A stretch of 64,000 bases of DNA from Nitrospira sp. KM1. Lineage in GTDB: Bacteria; Nitrospirota; Nitrospiria; Nitrospirales; Nitrospiraceae. Location: NCBI RefSeq assembly GCF_011405515.1, contig NZ_AP022671.1, forward strand, positions 1,984,001 to 2,048,000. Reading direction: 5' to 3'. This document shows, in pieces, positions 20,706 through 50,965 of the stretch. Each line of letters begins with the position of its first letter. Position 1 is the first letter of the stretch. A model generated the notes under the pieces. That model had not been told where the DNA came from, did no database searches, and saw only the letters and a program-made list of their open reading frames with translations. The position numbers were made by a program, and so were the translations under genes.

Positions 20706-21773
20706 TCAACTGCCGCCATTCTGGCTTGGATCACTCACACGAACCAGCATGGACGCCGCGATCGCCGAGAGCGGCAACACTTTGTCCACTGCGCCAAGTT
20801 TGATGGCTTCCTTGGGCATGCCAAAGACCACACAGCTTGCCTCATCTTGCGCAATGGTATGGGCTCCGACCTGCTTCATCGCCAACATCCCTTTCGCGCC
20901 ATCGCCTCCCATACCGGTCAGGATGACACCGACCGCGTTTCGTCCGGCCACTCGTGCGACGGAGTCGAACATCACGTCGACCGATGGGCGATGCCGATTG
21001 ACGGGAGGATCCTGATTGATCTTCACCGAATAGCGCGCTCCGCTCCGTACCAGGGTCATGTGATAGCTCCCCGGCGCAACCAGTGCATGACCAGGGAGCA
21101 CACTGTCCCCATCCTGTGCTTCTTTGACGGAAATGCGCGACAGGCTGTTCAACCGGTCCGCCCAGGTCTTGGTGAACCGTTCAGGCATGTGTTGGGTGAT
21201 CAAGATCGGAGGGGTGTTTGCGGGCAGCACTTCGAGCACCTCTTTGACTGCTTCGGTCCCGCCCGTCGAGGAACCGATGGCGATGATCGTGTCCGTCGTC
21301 TTGATCATGGCGGACTCCAGCAGTTTTCGAGGCATTGGCTCATTGGATGCCGCAGCTTGACGAGGCCGGACTGTCGCGCGCGCGGCGGCTTTGATCTTCG
21401 CAATGAGATCCTGCGCGACGTCTTCCATGCCTTCGCGCAGATCGATTTTCGGCTTGGTGATGAAGTCCACCGCTCCGAGCTCCAAGGCCCGCAACGTTGT
21501 TTCACAGCCGGCCTCCGTCAAAGAACTCACCATGACGACCGGCATCGGATGACCTCGCATCAACTTTTCAAGAAAGGTCAGTCCGTCCATTTTCGGCATC
21601 TCCACGTCGAGGGTCAGCACGTCCGGATCCAAGGCTTTGATCTTTTCACGCGCGATGTAGGGATCGGGAGCGGCGCCGACCACCTCAATGTCGGCGTCAC
21701 GTGAAAGAAGAGAGGCCAACAGTTGGCGCATAAGGGCTGAATCGTCCACAGTCAAGACGCGAATGTTTCCCAT
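20706..21773 (-). CDS. cheB: Chemotaxis methylesterase CheB
   Basis: A 355-residue protein with a receiver domain ([11 protein letters not shown], Asp in [12 protein letters not shown]) linked to a methylesterase/deamidase domain. The catalytic triad motifs are present: Ser in IGSSTGG, His in [10 protein letters not shown] and Asp in [12 protein letters not shown]. It removes methyl groups from MCP glutamates once phosphorylated by CheA. It lies between cheD and motB in the run cheR-cheD-cheB-motB. Confidence 0.96.
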
Positions 21774-21808
21774 AGGGCCTTTCGGAGTCGATCCCTTCTG
21801 GACCGCGC

Positions 21809-22420
21809 TTAGAACAACGTAACGTCCTCGACAGGCTGCTGTTTCACCGCTTGGATCTTGACTGCATACTCCGATTCGCGGTCATGAATCGTACGATTCT
21901 TCACCCGTTCGAGTTTTTTCATCAGCACACGACCAGAATCGGTAAAATAGTAGACTTTCCGCGGAAACACATCGCCCAGGTCTGTTTTCATCGGCGCCAG
22001 ACCTTCTGTCTTCAGAAAGTCCAGGACCCATGCAGTGTTACGCGCTCCCACATCGATATTGCCTTCATAGATTTTCCCTGCCCCGAACAATTTGACCTCG
22101 AGTCGTCCTTTCAGACCGCCACGCTTCAGGATCTCATTGATGAGCGATTCCATTGCGAACGATCCATATCGGGTGGACTCTCCCCAAGAATCATGAGTTC
22201 CGTCCTTCGGCGCCGGCAGCATGAAATGGTTCATCCCTCCCACGCCGGCAATCGGATCCCGAATACAGGCAGAAATACAGGATCCCAACACCGTATACAC
22301 AATCATGGGCTCTCGGCTGACGAAGAATTCTCCCGGCAAAATCGATGCGATTTCGTAGGGAAAGCGGTTATCGCGCATACGACGAATATGCGCAAATTGC
22401 GCCGTATCGACATCCGACAT
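21809..22420 (-). CDS. cheD: Chemoreceptor glutamine deamidase CheD
   Basis: The product has 203 residues. The catalytic cysteine is Cys48 in [10 protein letters not shown] and the histidine is His65 in GGMNHFMLP, with the 17-residue spacing seen in Thermotoga CheD. It deamidates receptor glutamines and in some species stimulates the CheC phosphatase, but no cheC occurs here. The extra C-terminal tail ends PVEDVTLF, which resembles the tail of the short CheZ-like protein at 28727 (DDSVTLF). The tail may be a docking motif. The start follows the cheR stop by 4 bases. Confidence 0.94.
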
Positions 22421-22424
22421 GGCC

Positions 22425-23243
22425 TCATCGCTCCTTCTGATAGATGGTGGGGGCCAATGCTTTGAATGGGTGTTTCACCCATTGCAGACTCTCCGAATGC
22501 CCGATGAATAGGTATCCTCCTGGTTTCAGGTAGCGATGAAACTTGTTGACGAGACGTTCCTGAGTCGGACGATCGAAATAGATCATGACATTCCGACAAA
22601 AAATGAGATCGAGCGGACTCTTGATCGGATAGTGGTCATCCATGAGATTTAAGCGGCGAAAGCGGATAATCTGCCCTAAATGCGGCTTGATCTTGATATT
22701 TCCGACGCTGGAGCCACGCCCTCGAAGAAAATGACGCTTGACGACCTCGGGCGGGACATCACGGACGCGCTCTTCGTCGTACACGCCTGAAGCCGCTCTG
22801 GCGAGGACGCGCGTCGACAGATCGGACGCCAGAATCTTGAAATCCCATTCCGATGGATTCTGAACGCTGTCATACAGCGTCATGGCAATCGTATAGGGCT
22901 CCTCCCCTGACGAACAGGCGGACGACCAGATTCGAATCTGTTTGGCCTTGGCCAGTTCCGGAAGAATGCGGTCCCGTAGAAACTCGAAATGCTTGGGTTC
23001 TCGAAAGAAGTCGGTCTTATTCGTGGAGATCAGATCCAGCATCCTTGTAAACTCGTCGCTTGCCGGATCCTCCATCAGGCGATTGTAGTACTCCGAGAAT
23101 GTGGCAAACCCGAGGTCCCTCAAACGCTTCGACAAGCGAGAGGCCAGGAGCGAGCGCTTTTGTTCGCCAAGAGAGATGCCGCTTTCATCGTAGATCAGTC
23201 GGCGAAAGCGTTCGAACTCTTCCGTGGAGATGGCATAATCCAT
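22425..23243 (-). CDS. cheR: Chemotaxis protein methyltransferase CheR
   Basis: A 272-residue SAM-dependent methyltransferase for MCP glutamates. The N-terminal helical domain (FERFRRLIYDESGISL) is followed by the SAM fold (IWSSACSSGEEPYTIAM, ASDLSTRVL, DLIFCRNVMIYFD). The beta-subdomain region that binds receptor C-terminal pentapeptides is present. The MCP encoded upstream ends GFEEF, a plausible tether. A sigma-28-like promoter lies about 60 bases upstream, in the gap after the MCP gene. Confidence 0.95.
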   Translation of the reverse strand: MDYAISTEEFERFRRLIYDESGISLGEQKRSLLASRLSKRLRDLGFATFSEYYNRLMEDPASDEFTRMLDLISTNKTDFFREPKHFEFLRDRILPELAKAKQIRIWSSACSSGEEPYTIAMTLYDSVQNPSEWDFKILASDLSTRVLARAASGVYDEERVRDVPPEVVKRHFLRGRGSSVGNIKIKPHLGQIIRFRRLNLMDDHYPIKSPLDLIFCRNVMIYFDRPTQERLVNKFHRYLKPGGYLFIGHSESLQWVKHPFKALAPTIYQKER

Positions 23244-23454: not shown

Positions 23455-25371
23455 CTAGAATTCCTCGAATCCGTCGTCATTGCCAGATCGGTGTGGAACC
23501 GTTCCGGCTCCCACGGCGACGGGCGCCTTTCGATCAACCGATCTGAGTACGGCCTTCTTGATCGAAGACTTGCCCGGAGTCGCGTGGCTCAAGGGCTTGA
23601 CCTCGCTCTTCGGCTTGTCCTGGGAGGATTCTGCATGGCTCGCGTTCACTCTGAATGCCGCCATCTGTTGCATGAGTTCTTTGGCCTGCTCTTTCATGGA
23701 CTGGCTGGCGCTGGTGGTCTCTTCGACCAACGCGGCATTCTGTTGTGTCGTCTCGTCCATCTGCATGACGGCCTTGTTCACCTGATCAATGCCGCTGGCC
23801 TGTTCCTGCGACGCGGCCGTGATTTCCGCAATAATGTCGCTCACCCGCTTCACCGAATGCACGATCTCCTCCAAGGTCTTGCCGGCTTGATTGACCAATT
23901 CGCTGCCGTCGGAGACCCGCTGGATGGACTCGTTGATCAGCCCCTTGATTTCTTTCGCCGCCGTCGCCGACCGCTGAGCCAGGTTCCGCACCTCGGCCGC
24001 CACCACCGCAAAGCCCCGGCCGTGTTCGCCCGCTCGGGCGGCTTCCACCGCCGCATTCAGCGCCAGCAAATTCGTCTGGAAGGCGATCTCGTCGATCACC
24101 GTAATGATGTCGGCAATCTTCTTGCTGCTCTGCGTGATGGCCCCCATGGCTTCGACCGCCCGCACGGTGACGGTGCCGCCTTTATCGGCGGTCTCCCGCG
24201 CCGCGGCTGCCAACTGATTCGCCTGCTTGGCATTGTCGGCATTCTGCTTCACGGTCGAGGTCATCTCTTCCATCGAGGCGCTGGTCTCTTCCAAGGAGGA
24301 CGCCTGCTCGCTTGTCCGCTGGGAGAGATCTTCGTTGCCCTTGGTAATCTGTTCGGCGCCGGCCGAGACGCTTTCCACGGCATCCCGTACAGCCGTGACG
24401 GTCCCGGTCAACTTCTGCACCGCCAGGTTGATGCTGGTCTTGATTTCCGACAGCCCGCCCTCGCAGGGAATCGTCATGTGTTCGGTCAGATCCCCTTGCG
24501 CCAAGGAGCCCAACACCCGTTTGGCCTCCACCATGAACTCTTCCATCTTGGCGGCCTGCGCCCGTTCCGCCGTCACCTTCGTTTCCAGTTGCGTCCCCAT
24601 TTCATTGAACGCCTGGCCCAACTGCCCCACCTCGTCCCGCGTCGTCACGGCACACCGCGCCGCTAAATTGCCCCGGGCCAAATCATTCGCGACAGTTGCG
24701 ATGCTGATCAGACCGTTCGTGATGTATCGTGCCACCAACCACCCGAACAGGAGACTGAGAGCAAGACCGACGGCGCTGGCGCCGACCATTGCGTTTCGAG
24801 TCGTCACAAAGGTCTGGACGGAATCCTCATACTTCTGTTCGGCAATCCTGGTCTTGACGGCCACTACCCGGTTGATCGCGTCCACAGCCGATTGATACTT
24901 GTCCGCGCCTTCCCCCTTCATGACTTCGATGGCGGCGTCCTGTTTGCCGCTCATCGCCAACGTCAAGACTTTTCCTTCTCGCACCGCCCGGTAGTCAGCC
25001 AAGGCGGATCGAAACCCGGCATAGGCTTGCTTCACGTCAGGCGATTCAATGAGGGCTTCGAACTGTTTGCTGGTCTCATCAATCCGTGTCTTCAGCTCGA
25101 CGATTTTGGCGATGGCCGCGGTGCGATCGACCGCGTTCTTTGACAGGACAGCCTGTAACGCCCATCCCCGCTGTTGATGCACCATCCCGCGCACTTCGGT
25201 AATGATCATCAACGGTTTCAATTGCACGTTCTGAATGTTGTCGGTGTTCTCCCGCAATACGCTCGTATTGAAGAGACAGAGCGTGGTGAGTCCGACCATG
25301 ACAAGGCCGGCGATTCCAAATCCCGCCATCAGTTTTGTCTTGGTCCTACAATGACTGAATGATTCCATCAT
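23455..25371 (-). CDS. Methyl-accepting chemotaxis protein (4HB sensor, HAMP)
   Basis: A 638-residue receptor. A membrane helix near residues 15-32 is followed by a four-helix-bundle periplasmic sensor (about 35-190) and a second membrane helix (about 193-215). Then come HAMP ([20 protein letters not shown] region) and the cytoplasmic signalling coiled coil with the hairpin tip [21 protein letters not shown]. The C-terminus is NDDGFEEF, resembling the CheR/CheB-binding pentapeptide (xWxxF) with Phe for Trp. It is the only MCP in this window and follows cheW. ATG 25368 is an alternative start. Confidence 0.94.
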
Positions 25372-25418: not shown

Positions 25419-25928
25419 TCACGCCGCAGCGGTAAGGGATTCCTTAATAGCGGAATCCACGAGGAGCCGGTCGATATCGACCAGCGACACGAGTTTGTCC
25501 CCGGACTTGGCGATCCCGCTGAGAAACGTGACATCGACTTTGTTCCCGAACTCGGGAGGCGATTGAATGTCCTTGCGATCGAAATTGAGGACGTCGGACA
25601 CGGCATCCACCACTAATCCCATCACCTTGTCTTGGACGACCACCACAACGATGACCGTAAACATGGTGTATTCGATTGTCGGCATTCCGAACTTCGTGCG
25701 GAGCTCGACGATGGGCACGATGGTGCCACGGAGGTTCAAGACTCCCTTGATATGAGACGGCGTATTCGGAATCCGAGTCACGGCCGTGTAGCCCTTGATT
25801 TCCTGTACTCGAAGAATGTCGACTCCGTAGAGTTCCTCTCCCAGACTGAACGTCAGAAATTGACTGCCGTCGTTGGCGCCCGTTTGCTGTTTCCCCACTT
25901 GAATCACAGTGTCCGCTACAGCGGCCAT
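25419..25928 (-). CDS. cheW: Chemotaxis coupling protein CheW
   Basis: A 169-residue CheW fold: FLTFSLGEELYGVDILRVQEI, then IPNTPSHIKGVLNLRGTIVPIVELR, then VVDAVSDVLNF. These are the standard receptor/CheA coupling blocks. It is the first gene of cheW-MCP with a sigma-28-like promoter about 105 bases upstream. Confidence 0.96.
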   Translation of the reverse strand: MAAVADTVIQVGKQQTGANDGSQFLTFSLGEELYGVDILRVQEIKGYTAVTRIPNTPSHIKGVLNLRGTIVPIVELRTKFGMPTIEYTMFTVIVVVVVQDKVMGLVVDAVSDVLNFDRKDIQSPPEFGNKVDVTFLSGIAKSGDKLVSLVDIDRLLVDSAIKESLTAAA

Positions 25929-26081: not shown

Positions 26082-28258
26082 CTACGCAACCGCCGGCAGG
26101 TTTCTGGCTATCTCCAGGAGCCCTCGCACGTCCAAGATAAATCCCACTGTGCCGTCTCCAAGAATCGTGGCTCCTGCGATGCCTTCGACTTTTCTGAAAT
26201 TCTGTTCCATGCTCTTGATGACGACCTGCTGCTGACCTAAAATCTCATCCACCATCACTGCAACGCGCTCCCCCTCTGTTTCGAGAATCAGCAGAATGGC
26301 CTCGTGTGGGTCCGTGTATTCCGGCACGTTGCCAAAGACGTCATACAGCCTTGTCATTGGGATGTAGGTGCCGCGGACGTTGACGAGTTCGCCCTTACCG
26401 ACCACCGTCTTGATGGATTCAGGCTTCGGCTGAATCGATTCCAGAATGGACAACAACGGGACGATGTACGTCTCTTTACCCACTCGCACGGTCATGCCGT
26501 CGATAATGGCCAAGGTGAGCGGCAGCTTGAGCGTAAAGGTCGTCCCTTTTCCCGTGGCCGTCTTGATGCTGACCGTGCCGCCGAGACCCTCGATGTTGCG
26601 CTTGACGACGTCCATCCCGACTCCGCGACCTGACACGTCTGTGACTTTATCCGCCGTTGAGAATCCCGGTTTGAAGATCAGCGGCCAGATTTGATCGTCG
26701 GCCAATTTTTCGTTTTCACCGATCAATCCCTGCTTGACGGCTTTCGCCAAAATCTTGTCCCGGTTGAGCCCGCGCCCATCGTCTTCCACCGTGATACAGA
26801 TGCTGCCTCCTTCATGGAACGCGTTGAGTCTGATCGTGCCGGTTTCCGGTTTATTGTCGTCGAGTCTCTGCTCGGAAGGCTCCAGGCCATGATCAGCGGA
26901 ATTCCTGACGAGATGTGTCAAAGGATCTCCGATGGATTCGATGACGGTCTTGTCCAGTTCCGTCTCTTCCCCCGAGAGCACGAGCTGAATCTTTTTCCCT
27001 GATTTTGTCGCGAGATCGCGCACAAGCCGAGGGAAACGACTGAATGCAGTGCCGATGGGCAGCATACGAATCCCCATGACACGTTCCTGAATCTCGCGTG
27101 TATTTCGTTCCAGCTGCGCCATGCGCTCAAGCAAAACCGGCAATTGACGCATCTCGAACCTGGATCCTAGATCGCTCAACATCGATTGCGTGATGACGAG
27201 TTCGCCCACGAGATTGATGAGCTTGTCGATCTTGGCCGTGTCGACGCGAATCGACGTGGTATCGGTCTTCTTCGCCTGAGCGGAAGATTCTTGCTGTCGT
27301 TGTTTCTGCAGAGCTTGTTCAACCTGCTGCGGAGTGACGACGTGTTGCTCAACCAATATTTCCCCAACGCGCTTCTGCTGCGATAACGCTTTGTCCAGCA
27401 TTTCACGGGAGACCGCTCCACTTTCGATAAGGAGTTCGCCCAACGGCTTGGGTTCAGCAAGGCCAGGATGTGAGAGCGGTATGTCGGCCGGGGAAGGCTG
27501 AGGAGTCGACGGGCCCTCGGGCTTGACGCCGATGTCTTCAATCAAAAGCACGCTATCTTCGCGAACGAATTCGAATACTCCTTCCACGACTTTCCGGTCC
27601 TTGACGCTCTCCAGCTTCATGGTCCAGGAAAGGTAACATCGCTCAGGATCAACTGCGGGCAGGTCGGGAAGCTTGGACGTATCCACCGTCACCGCCGACA
27701 GCGTTCCCAGGTCGGACAGCTCCTTGAACATTTGCAACGGATCCAGCCCACGCTGAAATAGCCATTCCGGAGGCGTCCATCTGATGGAATACACACGATT
27801 GTTGGTGGCGGCCTGGGTCGCAGCCATTGTCGGCTTGATCGCCATGGGGGGTTGCGCGACGTTGGAACCGCCCGGCGTACAGGATGCCGCCAGTTCTCCC
27901 GTCAGCCGTTGGACCGTGCCGTCATCCACCGATGACCCTGTCTTGGCCGCATCAATCAAGGTCTTCAAGCAATCGGTCGATTTCAGCAGGAGATCGGCGA
28001 TCTGTGGCGCGACAACCTTTTGCCCGTTCCGGAGCAAATCAAGCAGCGTTTCCATCTTGTGCGTAAATTGCGCGACGGCATTAAAGCCAAACATCCCGCT
28101 CGTGCCCTTAATGGAATGCGCCGACCGGAAGATTTTATTGAGCAGGTCGAGGTCTTCGGGATGCTGTTCGAGCGCCAAAAGACCTTCTTCGACAATAGAA
28201 GGTGTTCCGCCGCCTCCTCAAAAAAGGCGTCTTGAAACTGTGCAAAATCGTTGCTCAT
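26082..28258 (-). CDS. cheA: Chemotaxis histidine kinase CheA (one-base frameshift near 28197-28203)
   Basis: The continuous frame (26082-28178) lacks an ATG and begins inside the HPt domain. An ATG at 28258 with GAGGAG 7 bases upstream encodes MSNDFAQFQDAFFEEAAEHL in another frame. Inserting one base near 28197-28203 joins both parts. The phosphorylated histidine (RSAHSIKGTSG) then becomes His48, the same number as in E. coli CheA. Other domains are a P2-like region (about 120-230), two repeats of MshEN type (LGELLIESGAVSREM and VGEILVEQHVVTPQQ, about 270-320), dimerisation, GHKL ATPase (LVRNSADHG, DDGRGL, GRGVGMDVV) and a CheW-like domain. Confidence 0.9.
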
Positions 28259-28317: not shown

Positions 28318-28689
28318 TCATGCCGGCAAGACTTTCGCGATCGTCTTCAAGAGCACCTCGGGATCAAAGGGCTTGACGATCCATCCTGTCGCCCCCGCCT
28401 CTTTCCCAGACCGTTTCTTATCCTCGGCAGACTCCGTCGTCAGCATCAGGATCGGCGTGAATCGGAAGACGGGTATCTTTCTCAGTTCTTTGATGAGAGT
28501 GATGCCGTCCATTTCCGGCATGTTGAGATCTGTGACGACGATATCCATTTTTCGCCCGTCAGAGACCTTCTTGACGGCATCTTTTCCATGCTCGGCCTCT
28601 ACGACTTGGAAGCCTGCATTCGTAAGAGTAAAAGACACCATCTGCCGCATCGTAGGAGAATCGTCGACAACGAGCGCTGTCTTAGCCAT
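28318..28689 (-). CDS. CheY-like response regulator (first copy)
   Basis: A 123-residue single receiver domain with VVDDSPTMRQ, phosphoacceptor Asp54 (VVTDLNMPEMDG), Thr in MLTTES and Lys in VKPFDP. It lies between cheA and the short CheZ-like gene. This is the CheY type frequently encoded beside cheA in non-enteric bacteria. Whether it or the second copy at 31033 binds the motor switch cannot be told from sequence. Confidence 0.93.
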   Translation of the reverse strand: MAKTALVVDDSPTMRQMVSFTLTNAGFQVVEAEHGKDAVKKVSDGRKMDIVVTDLNMPEMDGITLIKELRKIPVFRFTPILMLTTESAEDKKRSGKEAGATGWIVKPFDPEVLLKTIAKVLPA

Positions 28690-28726: not shown

Positions 28727-29224
28727 TTAGAACAACGTGACGGAATCGTCGTCCGTTGCCGGCCGCGTTGAAGCCGGAATAGACGGTCTCGGCGCCGCAG
28801 GTGCACAACCATGGATTCGCCGTTCCGAATCCATGGTGTAACTGTGCTCAAGATCCTTCAGAAGCGATAAGCTGTCCTGCACTTCATGGTCCGGCTTGCC
28901 ATCGGCAAGATTTTGGAGGTGGTCACGAACCCGCATGAGTGCGTGTTCGACATGCTCCAGCTTCTGCCTCGTAATATCCTGAAATTGGAGCGACATGACG
29001 ATTTGGCCAACCTCACGAGATAACGTAGGCGCTTCCACGTCGGGAGGATCCCCGGCGATCGTGAGCCGATCCTGCCGCTGTGCCACGCCTTGCAGTTTCG
29101 TCATAATCTGGAGTGCGGCCTCTTCAGTCTGTTGGGTCACTGCCGCCATCTGCCGAATCAAAACTGGAATCAACGGTAATGCACACGCCGCGAACGCTTT
29201 CCATTCTCGACAAGATTCTGACAT
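28727..29224 (-). CDS. Short CheZ-like phosphatase
   Basis: A helical protein of 165 residues. It carries SLQFQDITRQKLEHVEHAL, which matches the catalytic stretch of CheZ (FQDLTGQ, with the Asp and Gln that attack CheY-phosphate). The preceding region is a long helix with coiled-coil character. The C-terminus is a flexible Pro/Ala/Thr-rich linker followed by TDDDSVTLF, laid out like the CheY-binding tail of CheZ. It lies between the STAS gene and cheY, so CheY is the likely substrate. A second, longer CheZ is encoded at 30404. Confidence 0.72.
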   Translation of the reverse strand: MSESCREWKAFAACALPLIPVLIRQMAAVTQQTEEAALQIMTKLQGVAQRQDRLTIAGDPPDVEAPTLSREVGQIVMSLQFQDITRQKLEHVEHALMRVRDHLQNLADGKPDHEVQDSLSLLKDLEHSYTMDSERRIHGCAPAAPRPSIPASTRPATDDDSVTLF

Positions 29225-29595: not shown

Positions 29596-30366
29596 CTATT
29601 TCTTGTCGCCTTTCGTCCGCTGCGAGTGAGGGAGAAAACTTTCAAGCTTTTCCTGCAGCAGGCGCGGGTTTTCTCCCTGTGCCAGACCGACCAAACCCAT
29701 GATCATCATGGAACGGACGCTGGATTCTTCCTTGAGTTTAAACTTGATCTTGTTCGCCAACGGAAGAAAGAACAGGTTTGCCGCACCAACTCCATACACG
29801 GTCGCCACGAATGCGACGGCGATACCTCCTCCCAACTTTGAAGGATCGGCGAGGTTTTCCATGACGTGGATGAGGCCGAGCACGGCGCCCAGAATCCCGA
29901 CCGTAGGGGCATACCCTCCGGCGGCTTCCCAGACCTTTGCTCCGGCCATGCCTTCTTCTTCATGATGCTCGACCTCGATTTCCAAGATTTCATGGACGGC
30001 CTTTGGATCTGTCCCATCGACGATCAGCTGGACACCCTTGGCCATGAACGGATCTTTGATCTCTTTGAGTTTGCCTTCGAGAGCCAGCAACCCTTGTTTT
30101 CTTGACACATTCGCCAAGTCCAGAATCAGCTTGATTGTGCCCTTAGCATCAATATGGGGATTGCCGATCGCGAGCGACAGCTTGGTCATCGCACGGATGA
30201 CGACCGGAAGCGGATTTTGAACGCAGCACGCTCCAAGGGTTCCGCCCATGACAATGATGAAGGCGGTGAGCTGCATGATCGACCCGAGATGTCCCCCCTC
30301 AAGGTGCTGCCCCCCGACAATGGATCCAATCGCAATGACAATCCCCAAAATAGTAGCGATGTCCAC
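29596..30366 (-). CDS. motA: Flagellar motor stator protein MotA
   Basis: A 256-residue protein with four membrane helices (ILGIVIAIGSIVGG; QLTAFIIVMGGTLGACCV; GYAPTVGILGAVLGLIHVMENL; VAFVATVYGVGAANLFFLPLANKI). A cytoplasmic loop lies between helices 2 and 3. The family-typical blocks LGGGIAVAFVATVYG and GAVLGLIHVM are present. It should pair with MotB encoded at 19875. It follows cheZ in the run HTH-cheY-cheZ-motA. Confidence 0.94.
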   Translation of the reverse strand: MDIATILGIVIAIGSIVGGQHLEGGHLGSIMQLTAFIIVMGGTLGACCVQNPLPVVIRAMTKLSLAIGNPHIDAKGTIKLILDLANVSRKQGLLALEGKLKEIKDPFMAKGVQLIVDGTDPKAVHEILEIEVEHHEEEGMAGAKVWEAAGGYAPTVGILGAVLGLIHVMENLADPSKLGGGIAVAFVATVYGVGAANLFFLPLANKIKFKLKEESSVRSMMIMGLVGLAQGENPRLLQEKLESFLPHSQRTKGDKK

Positions 30367-30403
30367 TTCGGCTGCTTCCTTTCAGGTCAACCTGGGTCGT
30401 GAA

Positions 30404-31003
30404 TTACTTGAATCCGAATTCGGAGAGGATTTCGTCGGCTAAGTCCTGCTTCATGGCCATAGACTTGGACGCTTCCAGTTGTTTGAGCATTTCGTCCGCC
30501 TTTCCAGTAGACGGCGAGTCTGACCCATGCTGCTCAAGTCCGAAGACAACGACCAACTCCATCAGTTTGTGTTGGACATCGTCCAGAATCGTAACAAGCT
30601 TCTTGACGCGCTGCGCCACAAGATCCTGAAACGATAGCGCGGTCATGATTTCCACCAATCGCCTGTCATTTTCAGTCAGCATTTCCGACGATCGCGTGAG
30701 CCGGCCCGCCAGCGACGGACAGTCCATCGCCTCTAGTACTTCTTTGGCCTTCAGCAGATCCTTGAGCAAGGCGCTCTGACTGTCCTGAATGAGTTCGGTC
30801 AAACGCATGACCTCATGCGTTCCTTCTTCCGTCATCTTATTCAGGTCGTTCAGATGCGCGGCGGCTTGCGGCAGTTGCGCGCTGCTGCTGGCCATCGGGC
30901 CGCCGACTTCGGACAGCTTTCGCATAGCGGTGTCGATAAACCGCGCCAGCTCACCAAGCTCCGAATACAATTTCAATTTGCTCTGTTCCACGATGCCTCC
31001 CAC
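30404..31003 (-). CDS. cheZ: Chemotaxis phosphatase CheZ
   Basis: A 199-residue, all-helical protein. ALSFQDLVAQRVKKLVTIL matches the E. coli CheZ active-site stretch, with the Asp and Gln (DxxxQ) that dephosphorylate CheY. The C-terminal KQDLADEILSEFGFK resembles the CheY-binding tail of CheZ (LLDSLGF-type). It is encoded directly downstream of a canonical cheY and upstream of motA. Confidence 0.85.
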   Translation of the reverse strand: MGGIVEQSKLKLYSELGELARFIDTAMRKLSEVGGPMASSSAQLPQAAAHLNDLNKMTEEGTHEVMRLTELIQDSQSALLKDLLKAKEVLEAMDCPSLAGRLTRSSEMLTENDRRLVEIMTALSFQDLVAQRVKKLVTILDDVQHKLMELVVVFGLEQHGSDSPSTGKADEMLKQLEASKSMAMKQDLADEILSEFGFK

Positions 31004-36392: not shown

Positions 36393-36920
36393 CTAAGGTT
36401 CGAGACGTGGAAGAATTTCATATTCCAGGACGTCGGCCATGAGTACGGAATCGCCTGCCTCTCTAGCCTTCAAGAGTTCGCGAACGGATGTGGCGAGCGT
36501 TTGGCCAGCACCGTGAGTCTGACCAGTCCCGTCGGTCGTCTGCAAACACTCGAGATAATCGGCGAGTGTTCCCAACCACAAGTCCAAACTGTTCAGTGTG
36601 TGCCGCCCTGATCGCAATGAATCGACAAGGCTGATTCCCTCGGCACGAATCGAGGCTGAAAATCGACTGATGGACGGACGAGCGGATTGCACGATATCTC
36701 CGCGCGACTGCGAGACGGCCGTCAATCGAGAGTATTGGATGGCCTGTTCAGCCAAGAATCCGGGATCGAGATCTCGATCTGTGATGTTTCGCTGGTCCAC
36801 AATGAGGGATGTCACGATGCGTGCCCGCGCATGTGCGCGCTCGCTGACGTCGGCCAGCACTTCTCCCAAAGTTGTTGTCCCCGTGACTTCCCATTGTTCC
36901 TGATCGAGCGTGACGTGCAT
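36393..36920 (-). CDS. Hypothetical protein downstream of the glycan island
   Basis: The 175-residue product starts at ATG 36920, with AGGAG 8 bases upstream; an upstream in-frame start at 36989 would overlap the GT9 gene. It is mainly helical (LGEVLADVSERAHARARIV, SLRSGRHTLNSLDLWLGTLADYLECL), without signal peptide or membrane segments. I do not recognise a family. Lying between fliC and glycosyltransferase genes, it could be a flagellar accessory or chaperone-like protein, but this is only positional inference. Confidence 0.65.
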   Translation of the reverse strand: MHVTLDQEQWEVTGTTTLGEVLADVSERAHARARIVTSLIVDQRNITDRDLDPGFLAEQAIQYSRLTAVSQSRGDIVQSARPSISRFSASIRAEGISLVDSLRSGRHTLNSLDLWLGTLADYLECLQTTDGTGQTHGAGQTLATSVRELLKAREAGDSVLMADVLEYEILPRLEP

Positions 36921-36985
36921 GGTGTCTCTCCTTTGTGTTTCCAGTCTGGCCATGCCTCGCTGTTGAGCATGGCTCCGCTTGCCGG

Positions 36986-38644
36986 TCACATTCCCGATGC
37001 CATGGCGAGTGGCCGTGACAATGTCCCGTCAAGGTAATGAGACAATGCATCGCCGAGCTCCACCACCTGCACACGCCACTTCCTGCAGGCCTGCGCATGA
37101 TACTGCGCAAGTCGATCGAGTCCTTGAAGGTCGTCGCTGTGAATGGATCTCACAAATGCCACGGTGACAGGCCCGGTGGCCGGTGATCTCATTCCCATTG
37201 CAATGGCTCTTTCGCGCTCCTCCGCCTGGGTATGTTGAAGCCTCTGCAGTTCGTTCACCGGCAGCGGCCGGCGGCTCGCGACTTGGGCGATCTTGCCGGC
37301 ACGCCTGCACAATGCATCAAGACGAGGAATCAGCAACGCAATATGCTCCATCGCTAGTCGTGCGTCAGGCGGAGGCAACGGCTGAACCGGCAACCGGCTC
37401 GGAAGTCCCGTCCAAGACTTGTAGGCATACCTGCGCCAGAACTCCGCGTACCATTCGGCAAGTGGAGCTTCGACCCCTCCGCGAAGCCGGAACGTGCCGA
37501 GTTGATCCTCGTCCACATCCGATTCATACAACCGAAACCCCGGATCTGAGCTCGGCCGCCCCGCCTTTCCCAGTACATGCAGCATCAACTCCGCAATGCG
37601 TTCACTGGGAATACGGTCTTTGCACGAATGATGAGCACAAACTTGTTGAAAGCCGCATGGCGCGCAATCCAATTGAGGTTGCACGACCCAGTGCCCCCGT
37701 CCATAGGGACCCGTTTCTCGAAAATCCACATGGCCGACCGACACATCGATCACAGGGGTTTGCACGGCCACGGCCAAGTGCATAGGACCCGTGTCGTTGG
37801 TCAGAAGCACCCGGCTCTCAGCGAGTAATGCGGTCAGCTGCGAAACCGACGTGTGACCGACAGCATTCTTCACGGGGTTCTTGCCTCCGGATCCTCTGTA
37901 GACCTGCACCACCTGCGCAGCGGTTGCCTGTTCACCGGGGGCACCAACAAGCACAATTCCGCCTGACCATTTGTCGGAGAGTCTCGCGAGCGTAACTCCG
38001 AAGTGTTCGGGTCGCCAGGCTTTCATAACATCGCTGGCACCGGCCTGCACCGCGATCCACTGGTGCGAGTCATTGCCCGGCATAGCAAGAAAGTGCTTTG
38101 CCCAGGCACCTGCCTCGGCGGGAATGCACGCCCGAAGCGGAGCGAACTTCCCCGGCCCGCTTCCGCCCAACGCGTACACGTCGACTAAGTTGAACCGGTT
38201 CATGGATCGAAAATGATGCATGTCGCTAAAATAGTTCATCCATGGATTGTCGATGATCATGCGGCCGTCCCAGCCGCACCTTGCGCCACGAATGTCAGCC
38301 ACGTCCATATAGCTCGACAAGAATGCACTGGCCGGATTGAACGTCAGATTGATAATCCGGTCGTAGCGACGTTCATGAAGCGGTGCGACCCACGCTCGCA
38401 TTTCGCGATAAAGAGACCCTACATCATGTTTCGCAATCCGGCTGTTGTCGATGAATTCGTGAAAATCATAGGGTACGACCTCTTCTACTCCTGCGAGCAA
38501 AGACGTGACCTCAGAGAATCTTCGGTCGATGACCAGATCCACCTGAACTCCTGGCCACTCTTCCTGCAAACGGGCCAAGAGCGTGCCCATCTGCACGAGA
38601 TCCCCCATGCGCGTAACATTCACGATCAGCACACGCCGGCTCAT
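36986..38644 (-). CDS. Glycosyltransferase family 9 (heptosyltransferase-like)
   Basis: A 552-residue GT-B protein. The N-terminal domain begins VLIVNVTRMGDLVQMGTLLARLQ, and the nucleotide-sugar domain carries LLTNDTGPMHLAVAVQTPVIDV, the GT9 signature. A CAPCGFQQVCAHHSC cysteine cluster follows, and the last ~190 residues are an added helical region of unknown role. GT9 enzymes transfer heptose-like sugars. It starts inside the last codons of the upstream CgeB-like gene (overlap 4 bases), so the two are co-translated. Confidence 0.85.
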   Translation of the reverse strand: MSRRVLIVNVTRMGDLVQMGTLLARLQEEWPGVQVDLVIDRRFSEVTSLLAGVEEVVPYDFHEFIDNSRIAKHDVGSLYREMRAWVAPLHERRYDRIINLTFNPASAFLSSYMDVADIRGARCGWDGRMIIDNPWMNYFSDMHHFRSMNRFNLVDVYALGGSGPGKFAPLRACIPAEAGAWAKHFLAMPGNDSHQWIAVQAGASDVMKAWRPEHFGVTLARLSDKWSGGIVLVGAPGEQATAAQVVQVYRGSGGKNPVKNAVGHTSVSQLTALLAESRVLLTNDTGPMHLAVAVQTPVIDVSVGHVDFRETGPYGRGHWVVQPQLDCAPCGFQQVCAHHSCKDRIPSERIAELMLHVLGKAGRPSSDPGFRLYESDVDEDQLGTFRLRGGVEAPLAEWYAEFWRRYAYKSWTGLPSRLPVQPLPPPDARLAMEHIALLIPRLDALCRRAGKIAQVASRRPLPVNELQRLQHTQAEERERAIAMGMRSPATGPVTVAFVRSIHSDDLQGLDRLAQYHAQACRKWRVQVVELGDALSHYLDGTLSRPLAMASGM

Positions 38645-40473
38645 ACTAAATCCCGCGTCTCCGCTCGATAGCTGTCCATCATCAGAATCAGCATTTCCTC
38701 CCGCCCAAGTGAGTGGCCGGCACCTCGCGAGCGGATCTCAGCCGCCACATCCTTCAACTCGACGCGGCGGCCCGCCGGAAACCGTCGCAACAGTGCGACG
38801 AGCTCCGGAGACGACGCCTCGTTCGCCATGCGATCAGCATCGCGATCTCCTCGAAGAATGGCTCCGATCCGGTCCGGTTGATGGAATCCGATCGTCGTCA
38901 GTAATTCCCTCATGCGATCCCGGTACGTATGCTCACGCAGAACACGCTGCCGGCCTGCAGACGCGATCGCGTGGCGGGCATCCGCATCGTTCAGCCAGTG
39001 GCGGATAAGCCGCGGAACGTCTGCCGCGTTCTTGAATCGCACTACTTCGCCTTCCGTGAAGACTTCCGGCAGGAGCCGGCGATCGTCCACTAGCTGGAAC
39101 GCTCCGCAGGCCGCCAGTTCGAAGGTCCTCGGATTAACGAAATCAGCCTGCACGTCGAGTCCATCACCCGACCAGGAGTGCAGGTTGAGATTGATCGATG
39201 ACGCGTTGAAGACCTTCACGCACGTGTCGGTGTCGATTCGTCGTCCTTCACGCTGCAACACGTGCCTCAGATTGCTGGCGCCGTCCCACTCGTTGCCCCA
39301 TAATCGGAATGTCCACTCTGGCGACAGCCACCGTGGAAGGAGAGCTCTTCGATTGGCATAGCCGGCCCCCACGAAGGATACATCTGATTTGAATTCGCTC
39401 TGTTCGCCCTCCGTGAGCACTCGCGGACAATGGATCTCTGGATCCGCGGCCATGGGAAGGTAGCTGACATGCGGAGCGCCCGCACGTTTCAGCGCTTCGA
39501 TACACTCCTCTCGTTGGAAAACAAACCAATACTCGTAGCCGGCCGCCAATTGCTGCCAGTACGTCAAATGCCGGTAGTTTTCGACAAACCACATGGCCGT
39601 GACAAATTTCTTTTTTCTCAAATGTTCGAGCACGGCCATGGTCAACGGTGCCTGGGCCAGCGCCAGCACCAAATCGGGCGGATCGTCCGCCAACCTGGTC
39701 ATTGTTTCCAGGCTGAGCACGTCGGCAAATCGGCTCTGCAATGCAAGCCGGTTACGGCTGTCGCGGACCGTGCCGAATGCTTCGTAACTGGCGTAATGGA
39801 TGTGATGGTCGATCCACGTCACGCGGTGTCCAAGACCTTCAAGCGCTCGGACAGCATACCCTGCGATTGGGAGTGAGCCTCCGTAGATCGGGCCGACGAC
39901 CGCCACGTGTAATTGCCCGGACCCAGTCGTAATGGCATGGCGAAGAGCCGTTTCTAATTCTTGATGGTGAGCGGCGTGCAACCGAGCCGCCGATGCGAAG
40001 GTAAAGAACCGCAGCGGTACCTTGTGCCCAGAGAGCTGCGTCGCAAGGTCCCTTTGAGGGCCCCAGAGCCATTCCACTTCATCGAACCAGTTCCCCACGG
40101 ATCTGACCGTGATTGCTTCTTTCATGAATGAGAGATCCGGCACAACGACGGCCACTCGGAGATCCCGGCCCTTCGCAGCGACTAAGGCTTCCACGTGATA
40201 CAGCAGTCCGACTCCAAGCACCACACCGAGCTCCCCATCTTTCCAATCCTTGACCTGAGCGGCAGCCCAGGAATGAGCTTCCTTTCGAGGGTCGTACGAA
40301 CTATGGATCCATTGTCCGTTGTGCATGGCTGAAGGACTGCCTTCTCGAGACGTCTGTATGCTCATTCCGCAAGCGCCGCTCTCCATCACGGCTTGCGCGA
40401 GAGCCGGATTGTGCTTGCGAATCCGCTCGATGTTCTGTGCAAAGTGATTCACGTATCCCTCATCCGACATCAA
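38641..40473 (-). CDS. CgeB-type glycosyltransferase with Maf-like N-terminus
   Basis: The N-terminal ~200 residues of this 610-residue protein contain FAQNIERIRKHNPALAQAV and IHSSYDPRKEAHSWA, reminiscent of motility-associated (Maf-type) glycosylation proteins. From about residue 205 (LHVAVVGPIYGGSLPIAGYAVRAL) it continues as a CgeB/GT4-like glycosyltransferase, ending in the typical NPRTFELAACGAFQLVDDR and LREHTYRDRM blocks. The combination suggests flagellin or surface-protein glycosylation. It overlaps the GT9 gene upstream and the GT9 gene downstream. Confidence 0.78.
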   Translation of the reverse strand: MMSDEGYVNHFAQNIERIRKHNPALAQAVMESGACGMSIQTSREGSPSAMHNGQWIHSSYDPRKEAHSWAAAQVKDWKDGELGVVLGVGLLYHVEALVAAKGRDLRVAVVVPDLSFMKEAITVRSVGNWFDEVEWLWGPQRDLATQLSGHKVPLRFFTFASAARLHAAHHQELETALRHAITTGSGQLHVAVVGPIYGGSLPIAGYAVRALEGLGHRVTWIDHHIHYASYEAFGTVRDSRNRLALQSRFADVLSLETMTRLADDPPDLVLALAQAPLTMAVLEHLRKKKFVTAMWFVENYRHLTYWQQLAAGYEYWFVFQREECIEALKRAGAPHVSYLPMAADPEIHCPRVLTEGEQSEFKSDVSFVGAGYANRRALLPRWLSPEWTFRLWGNEWDGASNLRHVLQREGRRIDTDTCVKVFNASSINLNLHSWSGDGLDVQADFVNPRTFELAACGAFQLVDDRRLLPEVFTEGEVVRFKNAADVPRLIRHWLNDADARHAIASAGRQRVLREHTYRDRMRELLTTIGFHQPDRIGAILRGDRDADRMANEASSPELVALLRRFPAGRRVELKDVAAEIRSRGAGHSLGREEMLILMMDSYRAETRDLV

Positions 40474-41650
40474 CAGGGTGAAGCAGTTGCCACGTCCGTT
40501 CCCGTTCTTGCGGCGGACCGGTCTCCTGCCCGATTTCCGTGTAGTAGGCTCCCCAGCGATCGCAATGGCTGCGCCAGGCAGACCAGCCTGGCCGCCCCTC
40601 GTATGACGAGGTTGTCAGATAGGCAAGCGTTTCCTCGACCGGCCATCTGGAGGGTGCCACGGGGGAGGGAGGAAACGCCGGATTCGATTCCGCACGGACC
40701 GCCTGCCAGATGACATGCCCGGGCCCATAAGGTCCTGTCTCATGCACGCTCGCCCGCGAGAAGTACCAGCCGATCACTTTCGTCCCAACGGCAGCAGCCA
40801 GGTGCAACGGCCCCGTATCGCTTCCGATCACCAAGTGGCATCTGCTCAGTGCGGAGGCAAGCTCCGGCAGTGATGTACGGCCTGTCAGATCCAGCGTTCG
40901 GTTCAGCGTGGAGGACGGCAACAACTCCCTCAGTTCCTGCGCGCGCTGTTGTTCCCCCTTGTTCCCGATCAGCACAACCCGCCCGTGAGGCACCACATGA
41001 AGAAACCCGGCGATCCAATCACGCCAAACCGACAAAGGGACCAGCCGTTCGGCATCGCCCGCTCCTACCAACAAACCAACCCACGTTCCTTCGTCATTCC
41101 CGACTTTTCGAAGATCGCTTGAAAGAGAGATGTCGGGAACAGGAATCCGGCATGCTCGGCCGGGGGGGTGCACGGAACAAAGACCGCAGAAGGCATCGGA
41201 GAGATGAACACGGTGGCTATGACCCGTGCGGGCCATTTGCCGGAGATAGGCTGCCCAAGGCGTCAGCCGGTCATCCAGCACATGGAAACGGGCGCCAACG
41301 ATCTCGCGGGCGAGCAAACCGCCTGCAAGAAGAGCGCGAGGATGTTGATTCAATACGTAAGCCCGATCGTAGGTCTCACACGTCACTGTCCGCAGATGAC
41401 GATCAGCTTCAGCCACATGTGCAGCTCCGAAATTGGTCTCCGCAGATTCCACCTGTTGTCGCCACGTCGCCCCATCCCAGCCCAACACGGTGCGTATTCC
41501 CGGGATCATGCGGGCGATTGCGACGAACGGGGCGGGACACAACAGATCAAGCACGAGATCGGCATGGCGATCTTTGATCGAGACAATCACCGGGATCGTC
41601 TGCAGGAGATCGCCCAACCGCGCCAATTGAATGACGAGTGCGCGTGTCAT
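40460..41650 (-). CDS. Glycosyltransferase family 9 (second copy)
   Basis: A 396-residue GT9 protein: ALVIQLARLGDLLQTIPVI at the N-terminus and CHLVIGSDTGPLHLAAAVGTKVIGWY in the sugar-nucleotide domain. It is shorter than the copy at 36986 and lacks its C-terminal extension. Its stop overlaps the start of the CgeB-type gene and its start overlaps the stop of the giant fusion gene, so the island is tightly coupled. Confidence 0.86.
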   Translation of the reverse strand: MTRALVIQLARLGDLLQTIPVIVSIKDRHADLVLDLLCPAPFVAIARMIPGIRTVLGWDGATWRQQVESAETNFGAAHVAEADRHLRTVTCETYDRAYVLNQHPRALLAGGLLAREIVGARFHVLDDRLTPWAAYLRQMARTGHSHRVHLSDAFCGLCSVHPPGRACRIPVPDISLSSDLRKVGNDEGTWVGLLVGAGDAERLVPLSVWRDWIAGFLHVVPHGRVVLIGNKGEQQRAQELRELLPSSTLNRTLDLTGRTSLPELASALSRCHLVIGSDTGPLHLAAAVGTKVIGWYFSRASVHETGPYGPGHVIWQAVRAESNPAFPPSPVAPSRWPVEETLAYLTTSSYEGRPGWSAWRSHCDRWGAYYTEIGQETGPPQERERTWQLLHPVDVG

Positions 41651-44600
41651 GATTTTGATGAATCAACGGCTTCGAGAGCCGCTTCCCCTTCTGCCAACGC
41701 GCGCGCGAGTTCTGCAAGCCCGTCGTAGGAGGGATCCAGCACACGAAGCGTGTCGTACTCGAGCCTGGCACGGTCGAGACGGTCTGCCCGAAGCAAGACA
41801 CCGGCGAAGGCGAATCGCGTGGTCAGATCGCCGGGGTTTCGCATCACATACCGGTCGAAGTGGTCGGCAAGGTCTTCCCAGCGTTGAAGTGCGGTGCCGG
41901 TGCGAAGCAACCAATGCATGGCCTCCGGATGATCGGGCCACTCAGCCAGAATAAGAGCAAACCGATCCCACGCTTGTTCGAATCGTCGGGTGCCGAACGC
42001 AGCCATCGCACTTCCCAACAAGGACTTCTGGCGATCACCTCCATGCTGCATAGCGGACGCGAATGCCGTTTCCGCCTCTTGATAGGCCTCGTGCTGCATG
42101 CTGAGGACCCCTTTGTACAGCCAGGCTTCAGCGAGGAGCGGTCGAATGGTGAGCTCAGTGTTGAGGTGCTCCTCCGCACCTTCGAATTCCCGTTGATCGA
42201 TGAGCGTCCTAATGAGCAGGCATCGTGCTGCAGAGGAATCCCGAATCTGAAGGCAGCGCCGTACGAATATTTCCAGGAGCTCAGGTTCTTGGAGACGGTC
42301 ACACGTCCGTGCTCCCCAGAGAAGGACGGAACAATCGCTGGGCCAATCCGCCGCGCAGATTAGCTCTTTTCGCACCGCGTCCCAGTCCTTCACAAGCGCA
42401 GCCCGTTGCGTCCTGGCCACATGGGCCCACTGATCGCGGTCTCGATTGTCGATCAGGAGTTCAAGACTGCCCTTGGTCGACCCTCCGGCTTCGTCCCAGA
42501 TCAGCTTGTACCCGTCCGAGTGGTAGTACAGATCCTCGTCTGCAGACCACCACTGACCACCCCAACGCTCGGTAAGCAGGCGGCCATTTTCTTCTTCAAA
42601 CTGTTTACGCCCCGGCGTTTGGCTCTCGAGGTGATAGAGGACGCTTTGTGGCTGGTACACAATAACGGAACCTGCGGCCTTGACTTTGAGGCAAAGATCC
42701 ACGTCTTCAAAGCCGTTGCGAAACCGCTCATCGAAACCTCCCACCTGTTCGAAGAGATTCCGACGGATCAATAGACAGGCGGCTGTCACAGCCTGAAATT
42801 CGCGCCGCTGATTCACGGCCGGATGGTCGGCGGGTGCGAGCCGATAAATATGATACGGAGACAATTGTTCCCGAAGGAAGATGACCCCGGCGTGCTGAAT
42901 GGTGCCGTCCGCGTAAAGAAGCTTGCTGCCGACTACTCCCACCTCACGATGCGTCTCGACTTCCCGCAGCATGGCGCTCAACCATCCGTCCAAGGGCACC
43001 GTGTCGTTGTTTAAGAAAATGAGATGTCTGCCCCGTGCGGCTTGCGCGCCTTGATTGCAGGCTCTGGCAAATCCGAGGTTTTCCTGGTTGCGGATCACTT
43101 GGACATCACCGCTCAATCCCGAAAGGAAAGCCGGAGTATCATCGGTCGAATGATTGTCGACCACGATCAATTCCCACGAGACGTCTTTGGTGGTCGTTGC
43201 CAGCGCTGCGACGCATTCCCGAGTCAGCTCACACCGATTCCAGACCGGAATAATCACCGAACAATCATAGGTCCGATCCGTCTCCCGAACTGGCTGCCGG
43301 GACGAAGGAGTGGACGGTCGAATGGACGGGGGGTACGTCGCCCGCAGTCGCTTCTCCTCCGGTTCGGCGATCTCTTTGCGGTTCGATAGCCCTTCGGGCG
43401 ACCGCCAATACAGCCCCGTGACGACGGGAATGTGCAACAGCTGGTGCTGGGCGCCGAGGCGAATCCAGAAATCCTGATCCCCCAACGCCACATAGGTCTC
43501 GTCGAAATAGCCAACGGCGCGATGAACCTCGCTTCTCCACATCGGATGCGGACCTACACCGCAGTGCGTCAGGAGGCCCTCGTAACGGTAGTCGGGCCAT
43601 TGCCATAGATCACAGCGATCGTGTCGCTCGAATGACTGATGAGGTTGAGCCGTGATCGAGGTATCACCATAGACGAGCGCCACATCGGGCCGTTCCTCCA
43701 AGGTCTTCGCCAATATTTCGTATGCGTCAGAACGGAGCCGATCGTTGGTGCTAAACGGCGTGATGAATCGCCCTTTCGCCAATTTGATGGCGACGTTCCA
43801 GGCCGCATACACCCCGATGCGCGAAGGCATTCGCAGATAGATGATGTTCTGATGCCGTTGCTGGAATTCTCGAACAATCGAGCCTTCCTGCTCGGGAGAG
43901 GCGGCATCGACCACGATAATCTCCATTTTCCCCATCACCGTCTGTCGCTCAAGGTCCGAGAGGCACTCCCGCATGAAGGCCTCTGCGCAATAGCTGGATA
44001 CGATCACGGAAATGAGCGGATGCTCGGATCCCCCAGCTCGCTTGGGCCGCGCCATGTCTGCGCGAAATCGGCGATTGACGAACAAGGCGTTCCCATGAGT
44101 AGGCGAATCAGGACCCAGCGGGGCAAATGAGACCAGGTCATGATCGGCCTGCAAGACCTCCTTGAGATCATCCAGACACTTCGCCCCCGCATAGACTTCT
44201 TCCAGACTCGCCTCCACATACAGTGCAAGAACGCGCGCTTTCAGGTCCGGGGAAAGAGATGAGAGAATTTGGAATTCCGCACCCTGCACATCGAGAAGCA
44301 GCATATCCGGTTGACTCAATCCATGTTCCTGGATGATCGACTCGAGCGTCCGGCAGGACACAGGGATGGAGCGAATCTCGTGGACGTGCGGAAAGATCTG
44401 CTTATGCTTTCCCAAGTGCAAGAGGGAGCTGGATTCACCGTCGTTGTTCGTCAGGAAGAAGTCCCGTGTCGCATTTTCATTCGACAATGCACAGCAGAAC
44501 ACCTTCACGCGGGAATCGACCTTCTCGAACCGCCTGAGATATTCGGCCAGTTGCGGAATCGGTTCGAACAAGTAAATCCGCTCCAGATTTGGGAACAGCC

Positions 44601-45852
44601 GATCAAACAAGTCGCGCTCCTGGAATCGATGGGCGCCGATGACGTAGAGGGAACGGATCTGTTTCGCCGTCTCGGTCTGATACAGCGACATAAAGGAGTC
44701 ATGCTGTGTCGGTGTTGGCATGGAGACCTCGCTGGCCGATGCGATGATCTGATGATTCTGGTGAGAAATGTCGTGCTCCACTGAGACGGTTGCGTGTCGA
44801 CCGGCAGATCCCTGGTCCAGCACCTGCTCGGAACAATAGGCATCCCAGCGCGGCGTCAAGCTGAGCATGCGGTGCCCGCGTGCGTGCTCGGAGAGGGTTT
44901 CACGCAGCTGACTGTGCGCGATGAATGTCAGTTGAGGAGCGATCGTCAACGACTCTTCCATGCCCCATCGGACATCCGGCACGGCAGTATGCAATGTGTG
45001 ATGACCTGCAGCCAATGCTTCCGCATAGGGGACGAAGCAATGGCGCAGGCTCCCATACGTCAATGGATAATGCGCATGCGAGACCGGAATAGCCGCATCC
45101 GCCGCCACGAGTTTGAACGAATGAAAATGATAAAATATCAGCGACTGCCCATCGACCAGCGTCGAGCCGTTGTCGGACGATGCGATCACGTATCGATCAT
45201 GATTCCAAGGTCCGACGCCTCCACCCACATGTCGAAGGATCGTCACGCCGCGAAACCGCTGCGGCCAATCGTTGAGGTACAACTGGTCTCCCATCTTTCC
45301 CTGTTCGTAGCGCGTGAAGCACCATTCGATGCAGCGGGCGCGCCACCATCGCAGTGCATTCAGACCGTTCTCATCACGCCGAAACATCAGCAATCCGACG
45401 TTGAAACGGCCATTGTGCGTCGCGAGATCCTTCTGACGAGGGGAGAACCGATGTTCGTGGATCAGGATGGACGTCTGACCGAGTTCATCAAACAGTGGCT
45501 GAGGCGATGAGAAAAAGAACAGGTCGGCATCGAGATAGGTCAACACGTCGACCTGTCTGTGCCGCTCCATGATGCGAAGAATGACAGTGGGTGTCAGGGT
45601 CCAGTAGTACTCGACCAGGCTTCTGGTGGGTTTGACGCCAAGCAAGGGCCGATCGCGGGATTCGATGTCGTGCAGTGGGATCGGCTGGACATTCGCAAGC
45701 CCGAGGCGTCGAAGAACCAGGTGAGTCATCTCATCCATGCAGACGACGAAGATCACCCAATCTTTCGACTCGCTCACGCGCAAGGAGTCAATCAGAGCCA
45801 GCCCTCTGACCAGGTAGTTGCGATCGAAATAGGTGCAGTAGTACCGCGTCAT
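41647..45852 (-). CDS. Giant fusion: GT8-like / FkbM methyltransferase / GT2 / GT2 / TPR
   Basis: This 1401-residue protein starts at ATG 45852, which overlaps the aminotransferase stop. Residues 1-330 are a GT-A fold of GT8-like type (VLTYLDADLFFF is the metal-binding DxD). About 400-610 is an FkbM-type methyltransferase (IYLFEPIPQLAEYL, MLLLDVQGAEFQIL). About 615-850 is a GT2 domain (LISVIVSSYCAEAFM). About 865-1130 is a second GT2 with an intact GFEDVDLCLKVKAAG block (CSVIIPVWNRCELTRECV, LIFLNNDTVPLDGWL). The rest is helical TPR-like repeats. It probably builds and modifies a glycan in one polypeptide. Confidence 0.82.
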   Translation of the reverse strand: MTRYYCTYFDRNYLVRGLALIDSLRVSESKDWVIFVVCMDEMTHLVLRRLGLANVQPIPLHDIESRDRPLLGVKPTRSLVEYYWTLTPTVILRIMERHRQVDVLTYLDADLFFFSSPQPLFDELGQTSILIHEHRFSPRQKDLATHNGRFNVGLLMFRRDENGLNALRWWRARCIEWCFTRYEQGKMGDQLYLNDWPQRFRGVTILRHVGGGVGPWNHDRYVIASSDNGSTLVDGQSLIFYHFHSFKLVAADAAIPVSHAHYPLTYGSLRHCFVPYAEALAAGHHTLHTAVPDVRWGMEESLTIAPQLTFIAHSQLRETLSEHARGHRMLSLTPRWDAYCSEQVLDQGSAGRHATVSVEHDISHQNHQIIASASEVSMPTPTQHDSFMSLYQTETAKQIRSLYVIGAHRFQERDLFDRLFPNLERIYLFEPIPQLAEYLRRFEKVDSRVKVFCCALSNENATRDFFLTNNDGESSSLLHLGKHKQIFPHVHEIRSIPVSCRTLESIIQEHGLSQPDMLLLDVQGAEFQILSSLSPDLKARVLALYVEASLEEVYAGAKCLDDLKEVLQADHDLVSFAPLGPDSPTHGNALFVNRRFRADMARPKRAGGSEHPLISVIVSSYCAEAFMRECLSDLERQTVMGKMEIIVVDAASPEQEGSIVREFQQRHQNIIYLRMPSRIGVYAAWNVAIKLAKGRFITPFSTNDRLRSDAYEILAKTLEERPDVALVYGDTSITAQPHQSFERHDRCDLWQWPDYRYEGLLTHCGVGPHPMWRSEVHRAVGYFDETYVALGDQDFWIRLGAQHQLLHIPVVTGLYWRSPEGLSNRKEIAEPEEKRLRATYPPSIRPSTPSSRQPVRETDRTYDCSVIIPVWNRCELTRECVAALATTTKDVSWELIVVDNHSTDDTPAFLSGLSGDVQVIRNQENLGFARACNQGAQAARGRHLIFLNNDTVPLDGWLSAMLREVETHREVGVVGSKLLYADGTIQHAGVIFLREQLSPYHIYRLAPADHPAVNQRREFQAVTAACLLIRRNLFEQVGGFDERFRNGFEDVDLCLKVKAAGSVIVYQPQSVLYHLESQTPGRKQFEEENGRLLTERWGGQWWSADEDLYYHSDGYKLIWDEAGGSTKGSLELLIDNRDRDQWAHVARTQRAALVKDWDAVRKELICAADWPSDCSVLLWGARTCDRLQEPELLEIFVRRCLQIRDSSAARCLLIRTLIDQREFEGAEEHLNTELTIRPLLAEAWLYKGVLSMQHEAYQEAETAFASAMQHGGDRQKSLLGSAMAAFGTRRFEQAWDRFALILAEWPDHPEAMHWLLRTGTALQRWEDLADHFDRYVMRNPGDLTTRFAFAGVLLRADRLDRARLEYDTLRVLDPSYDGLAELARALAEGEAALEAVDSSKS

Positions 45853-48003: not shown

Positions 48004-48004
48004 G

Positions 48005-50779: not shown

Positions 50780-50965
50780 ATCGAGATCACATGACGGAGT
50801 CGATGAGCATTCATTCCAGGGCACATCAAGATGTGTGCCACTTGACAATACCGAAAAAACAAGGAGATCCACGCAAAGTGAGAAAGAGAAGATAACTGGG
50901 AGGGAAAAAATTACCGACTCTGATCGAGTCCGACTTTGCTGTGACTCGGAAAATATTGCCCGATG

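Follow-up and report, generated by a model that had tools for sequence, protein, structure and literature searches.

Does Nitrospira sp. KM1 carry a working flagellar-type cheA, or has the gene lost its reading frame? The question arises since the first helix of this kinase and the remainder of the protein are encoded in different frames. We analysed the locus within a window of 64,000 nucleotides (the whole stretch of DNA studied), corresponding to positions 1,984,001-2,048,000 of the KM1 genome, which is a single contig of 4,509,223 bp. Feature positions in the window are collected in Table 1.

Two reading frames at the cheA locus

The main frame encodes an HPt domain from helix B on, a P2-like region, an LGELL/ILVE repeat linker, and the H-kinase_dim, HATPase_c and CheW domains. 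The order HPt, H-kinase_dim, HATPase_c, CheW was thus present, with all four domains above the curated cut-offs. The HPt profile match began only at position 21 of 84, and a complete HPt (P1) domain including helix A in one frame, which the relatives have, is absent in KM1. At about residues 244-295 (numbered from the TTG), P2 and the dimerisation domain are joined by a linker with repeated LGELLIESGAVSREMLDKALSQQKRVGEILVEQHVVTPQQVEQAL; it is reminiscent of the N-terminal repeats of type II secretion ATPases and matched no Pfam family at the chosen cut-off.

The initial annotation located the missing helix in another frame, opened by an ATG at 28258 with GAGGAG upstream, and our analysis bears this out. 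The protein in the ATG frame begins MSNDFAQFQDAFFEEAAEHL and carries the native N-terminus MSNDFAQFQ...; its first 20 codons are the true start of CheA (helix A), after which it runs out of frame until the stop. This 91-residue stub is unable to function as CheA. The same annotation proposed that one added base near 28197-28203 would join the two frames. DNA alignment put the missing base at 28202-28196, where KM1 has 5 nucleotides and all of the aligned relatives (11/11) have 6, and tblastn with the CheA proteins of two intact relatives gave the identical break. In AP022671 coordinates the lesion lies at approximately 2,012,196-2,012,202, between CAC and ATT, and the assembled sequence across it reads ACCTTCTATTG. 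Relative to its intact orthologs the KM1 frame is broken, and the gene as sequenced is a disrupted one. The N-terminus of an intact relative aligned to the enteric CheA P1 domain without gaps, residue for residue from position 1, which agrees with the earlier assignment of the phosphoacceptor to His48 as in E. coli.

Table 1. Positions in the window of the cheA frames, the lesion and the neighbouring chemotaxis and motility genes.
Feature	Position	Strand	Basis
cheA main frame, TTG-opened, 698 aa	26082..28178	-	ORF list, domain search
5' stub frame from native ATG, 91 aa	27983..28258	-	ORF list, DNA alignment
Missing base, codons 20/21	28196..28202	-	DNA alignment with relatives
Internal TTG, encodes Leu28 in the native frame, not conserved as a start	28176..28178	-	Alignment of relatives
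Perfect 7-bp inverted repeat ACCTTCT(8 nt)AGAAGGT across the lesion	28182..28203	-	Fold prediction, sequence inspection
cheY-like response regulator, directly upstream of cheA, intact	28318..28689	-	Domain search, comparison with relatives
cheW, intact	25419..25928	-	Domain search, comparison with relatives
Methyl-accepting chemotaxis protein, domains complete	23455..25371	-	Domain search
cheR, cheD, cheB, intact	20706..23243	-	72-86% identity to relatives over full length
motA-like and cheZ, intact	29596..31003	-	Domain search, comparison with relatives

Comparison with relatives and the age of the break

CheA orthologs were sampled from the Nitrospiraceae, from the same order and from named GTDB genomes. 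The pattern was matched automatically at 166 loci, many genomes having been fetched more than once, and 3 further copies of one sequence were accepted by eye. At every locus that reached the start of HPt, helix A and the rest of the protein were in one frame (80 distinct N-termini), and a divergent paralog also had its helix A in frame. The continuous frame of the relatives reads ...EEAAEHL-A-IVEEGLLALEQ...; in the alignment with related genomes, which had been proposed as a check, the break occurred in KM1 only.

These data also bear on the idea that KM1 CheA genuinely begins at the internal TTG and functions without helix A. The long open reading frame is well conserved, and a purine run (GAAGAAGG, 28190-28183) lies 4 nt ahead of the TTG. 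The initial annotation described this codon as a bare TTG inside HPt, without a ribosome-binding site; its position in HPt was correct, but the purine run qualifies the second part. The run derives from E-E-G codons, however, and most of it is paired in the predicted hairpin discussed below. Orthologs that start at the internal TTG and lack the upstream helix, named beforehand as the result that would speak against a frameshift, were not found among the 80 distinct N-termini. Since all of these carry an in-frame helix A, a native TTG start is unsupported; the relatives have ordinary leucine codons at this position, and the truncated HPt match adds to the case against it. Models of E. coli CheA have helix A of P1 touching P4 in each of the two binding modes (PMC10653900), which also argues against a CheA that dispenses with this helix. 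A genuine start at the TTG is therefore extremely improbable.

Neither side of the break has decayed. In comparison with the nearest relative (G010), codons 1-19 showed 8 synonymous and no nonsynonymous codon differences, and codons 22-27 showed 4 synonymous and again no nonsynonymous ones. At 279 columns conserved in at least 97% of the relatives, KM1 CheA departed at 3, one of which is the artefactual Met1. As both stub and remainder are undecayed, the lesion is either very young or an error, and these comparisons indicate that the sequence on both sides of the break was under selection until a very short time ago, or remains so.

A recent deletion, a sequence error or recoding

We favour a real, very recent one-base deletion that shifts the frame at codon 20/21 of the only flagellar-type cheA of KM1, with a probability of roughly 0.6. 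Translation from the native ATG would then give a 91-residue peptide of which 20 residues are native, while the internal TTG would yield little or no CheA, and any product would be devoid of P1 helix A. Without this helix the phosphorylation of His48, and with it that of CheY, would be expected to fail, and cells would keep their flagella and lose chemotaxis. Only two CheA-type dimerisation domains were found in the KM1 genome, and the second belongs to a CheA-like protein of 1145 residues with three HPt domains, so that there is no obvious substitute for the flagellar-type CheA. KM1 cells are thus likely flagellated and non-chemotactic.

The principal competitor, which we regard as a serious though less probable explanation, is a one-base error in the assembled sequence, with an intact cheA in the cell. 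It accords with the intact gene in all relatives and with the neighbouring motility genes, every one of which is intact as in a working system. The undecayed flanks do not tell the two apart, as an assembly error would leave them equally untouched. Single indels can enter when gaps are closed or an assembly is curated by hand, and in principle a hairpin might disturb sequencing, though 7 bp is short. The published KM1 assembly is one contig with 119.5x coverage (PMC7522533; GenBank AP022671), and the sequencing method was described earlier as MiSeq paired-end and mate-pair reads assembled with SPAdes and curated manually (PMC5767232). Such Illumina data at this depth speak against an error, and so does the position of the site outside any homopolymer. 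The Illumina reads are deposited as DRR084142.

A scan of KM1 for frameshifts took in 344 kb surrounding the window; proteins of relatives covered approximately 175 kb of this. It gave 13 rows, two of them cheA; rows based on congener G001 were checked in detail and the remaining ones were judged by intact flanking genes. The other 11 rows were judged to be antisense ORFs that run across adjacent genes, or overlapping start choices, the strongest of them (2,140,847) being a normal gene start. Besides cheA, no frameshift survived inspection within the approximately 175 kb covered, which indicates that the assembly is not generally indel-prone and counts against an error at this site. Plasmid records queried with the cheA region gave no match.

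The lesion lies in a perfect inverted repeat, ACCTTCT-ATTGTCGA-AGAAGGT, and the missing base falls within the first arm. In E. coli, small indels are known to arise by template switching at quasipalindromes (PMC7202029). A template switch could likewise have deleted the base in KM1 and turned an imperfect inverted repeat into the perfect 7-bp one. When single deletions were simulated in the genes of the window, 0.73% newly created a perfect stem of at least 7 bp across the junction, in a test that was post hoc; as the repeat was noticed before it was tested, a quasipalindrome origin of the deletion stays a suggestion.

The hairpin predicted at this repeat, together with a run of six T at 28225-28220 in the native frame, could be taken as a sign of recoding, with full-length CheA arising from a one-base slip of the ribosome or RNA polymerase. 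But the frame entered by a slip at the T run, the only long run, runs directly into a TGA (28220-28218), which means that CheA cannot be restored by slippage at this point, and recoding at this run was rejected. Between that TGA and the junction there is no in-phase slippery heptamer, the arrangement occurs in no relative, and the strength of the hairpin was rejected as evidence for a recoding element, the fold z-score at the lesion being only -1.0. An in-phase slippery site that leads into a usable frame and is conserved in the relatives, the mark of a programmed frameshift, was not found, and we consider recoding highly improbable. Among the choices left by the initial annotation (an error of sequencing or assembly, a genuine loss, or recoding), which our data support as the relevant ones, a recent deletion is thus preferred, an error is possible and recoding is unlikely. 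The case is an ordinary one, either a gene lesion of very recent origin or an error in the sequence, and not a new mechanism. No relevant report of a comparable cheA frameshift emerged from a literature search.

The motility block and known systems

In KM1, cheA sits among che, mot and fli genes (cheY, cheW, the gene for a methyl-accepting chemotaxis protein, cheR, cheD, cheB, cheZ, motA, fliS, fliD and flagellin), and these neighbours are full length. They belong to a block of approximately 90 kb with flagellar and chemotaxis genes (genome positions ~1,999,400-~2,090,000; window 15285-64000). Congener G001 is collinear with KM1 on both sides of the block and has only approximately 9 kb at the site. 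None of six sampled congeners has flagellin genes, which fits the reported lack of flagella in N. japonica NJ1 (PMC5767232); of the seven genomes sampled in the genus, KM1 alone carries them.

A run of large glycosyltransferase and methyltransferase proteins (36393-50872; up to 1422 residues) adjoins flagellin and probably serves flagellin glycosylation; several of its proteins are strongly divergent from, or missing in, the compared relatives. Between cheY and a STAS gene, a small conserved protein without Pfam match (28727-29224) has an N-terminus approximately 37 residues shorter than its G010 homologue and is also shorter internally. A second Flagellin_N match (59557-59943) lies far from the flagellin gene, inside a 588-residue protein (58210-59976) that is probably a hook-associated protein.

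One could imagine that motility loss is only beginning in KM1, a quasipalindrome deletion having just ended chemotaxis in an otherwise intact block of approximately 90 kb, with the N. japonica clade as the end state. We think this doubtful: a first step is conceivable, but a chance lesion or an error equally so. KM1, a characterised nitrite oxidiser, was sorted, isolated and cultured in the form of dense microcolonies, where cells may not need chemotaxis. If the deletion is real, the isolate is probably non-chemotactic, which should not be assumed of its wild relatives, and the lesion could mark an early stage in the loss of motility within a clade mostly devoid of flagella. If it is an error, one wrong base leaves a central kinase misannotated in AP022671. 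In both cases, such events are common.

E. coli also makes a short form of CheA, from an internal start after the phosphorylation site, along with the full-length form. The long open reading frame of KM1 likewise opens internally and encodes a shortened CheA, but KM1 has no full-length frame and its TTG is not conserved. As in the quasipalindrome template-switch mutations of E. coli (PMC7202029), a small indel perfects an inverted repeat, although the KM1 case is read from the sequence alone, without an ancestral strain. Experimental evolution of Campylobacter jejuni (PMC7677240) and laboratory adaptation of Bacillus subtilis (PMC11500573) are reported to have given mutations that alter or disable motility during laboratory growth. 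These resemble KM1 in that a small mutation hits a motility or chemotaxis gene, and for KM1 an origin in culture is just a possibility. With the flagellar-type CheA proteins of E. coli, Salmonella, Nitrospira defluvii and other Nitrospira, KM1 CheA shares the domain order and the phosphoacceptor in AHSIKG, and it differs from these orthologs in that no continuous frame joins helix A to the remainder of the kinase.
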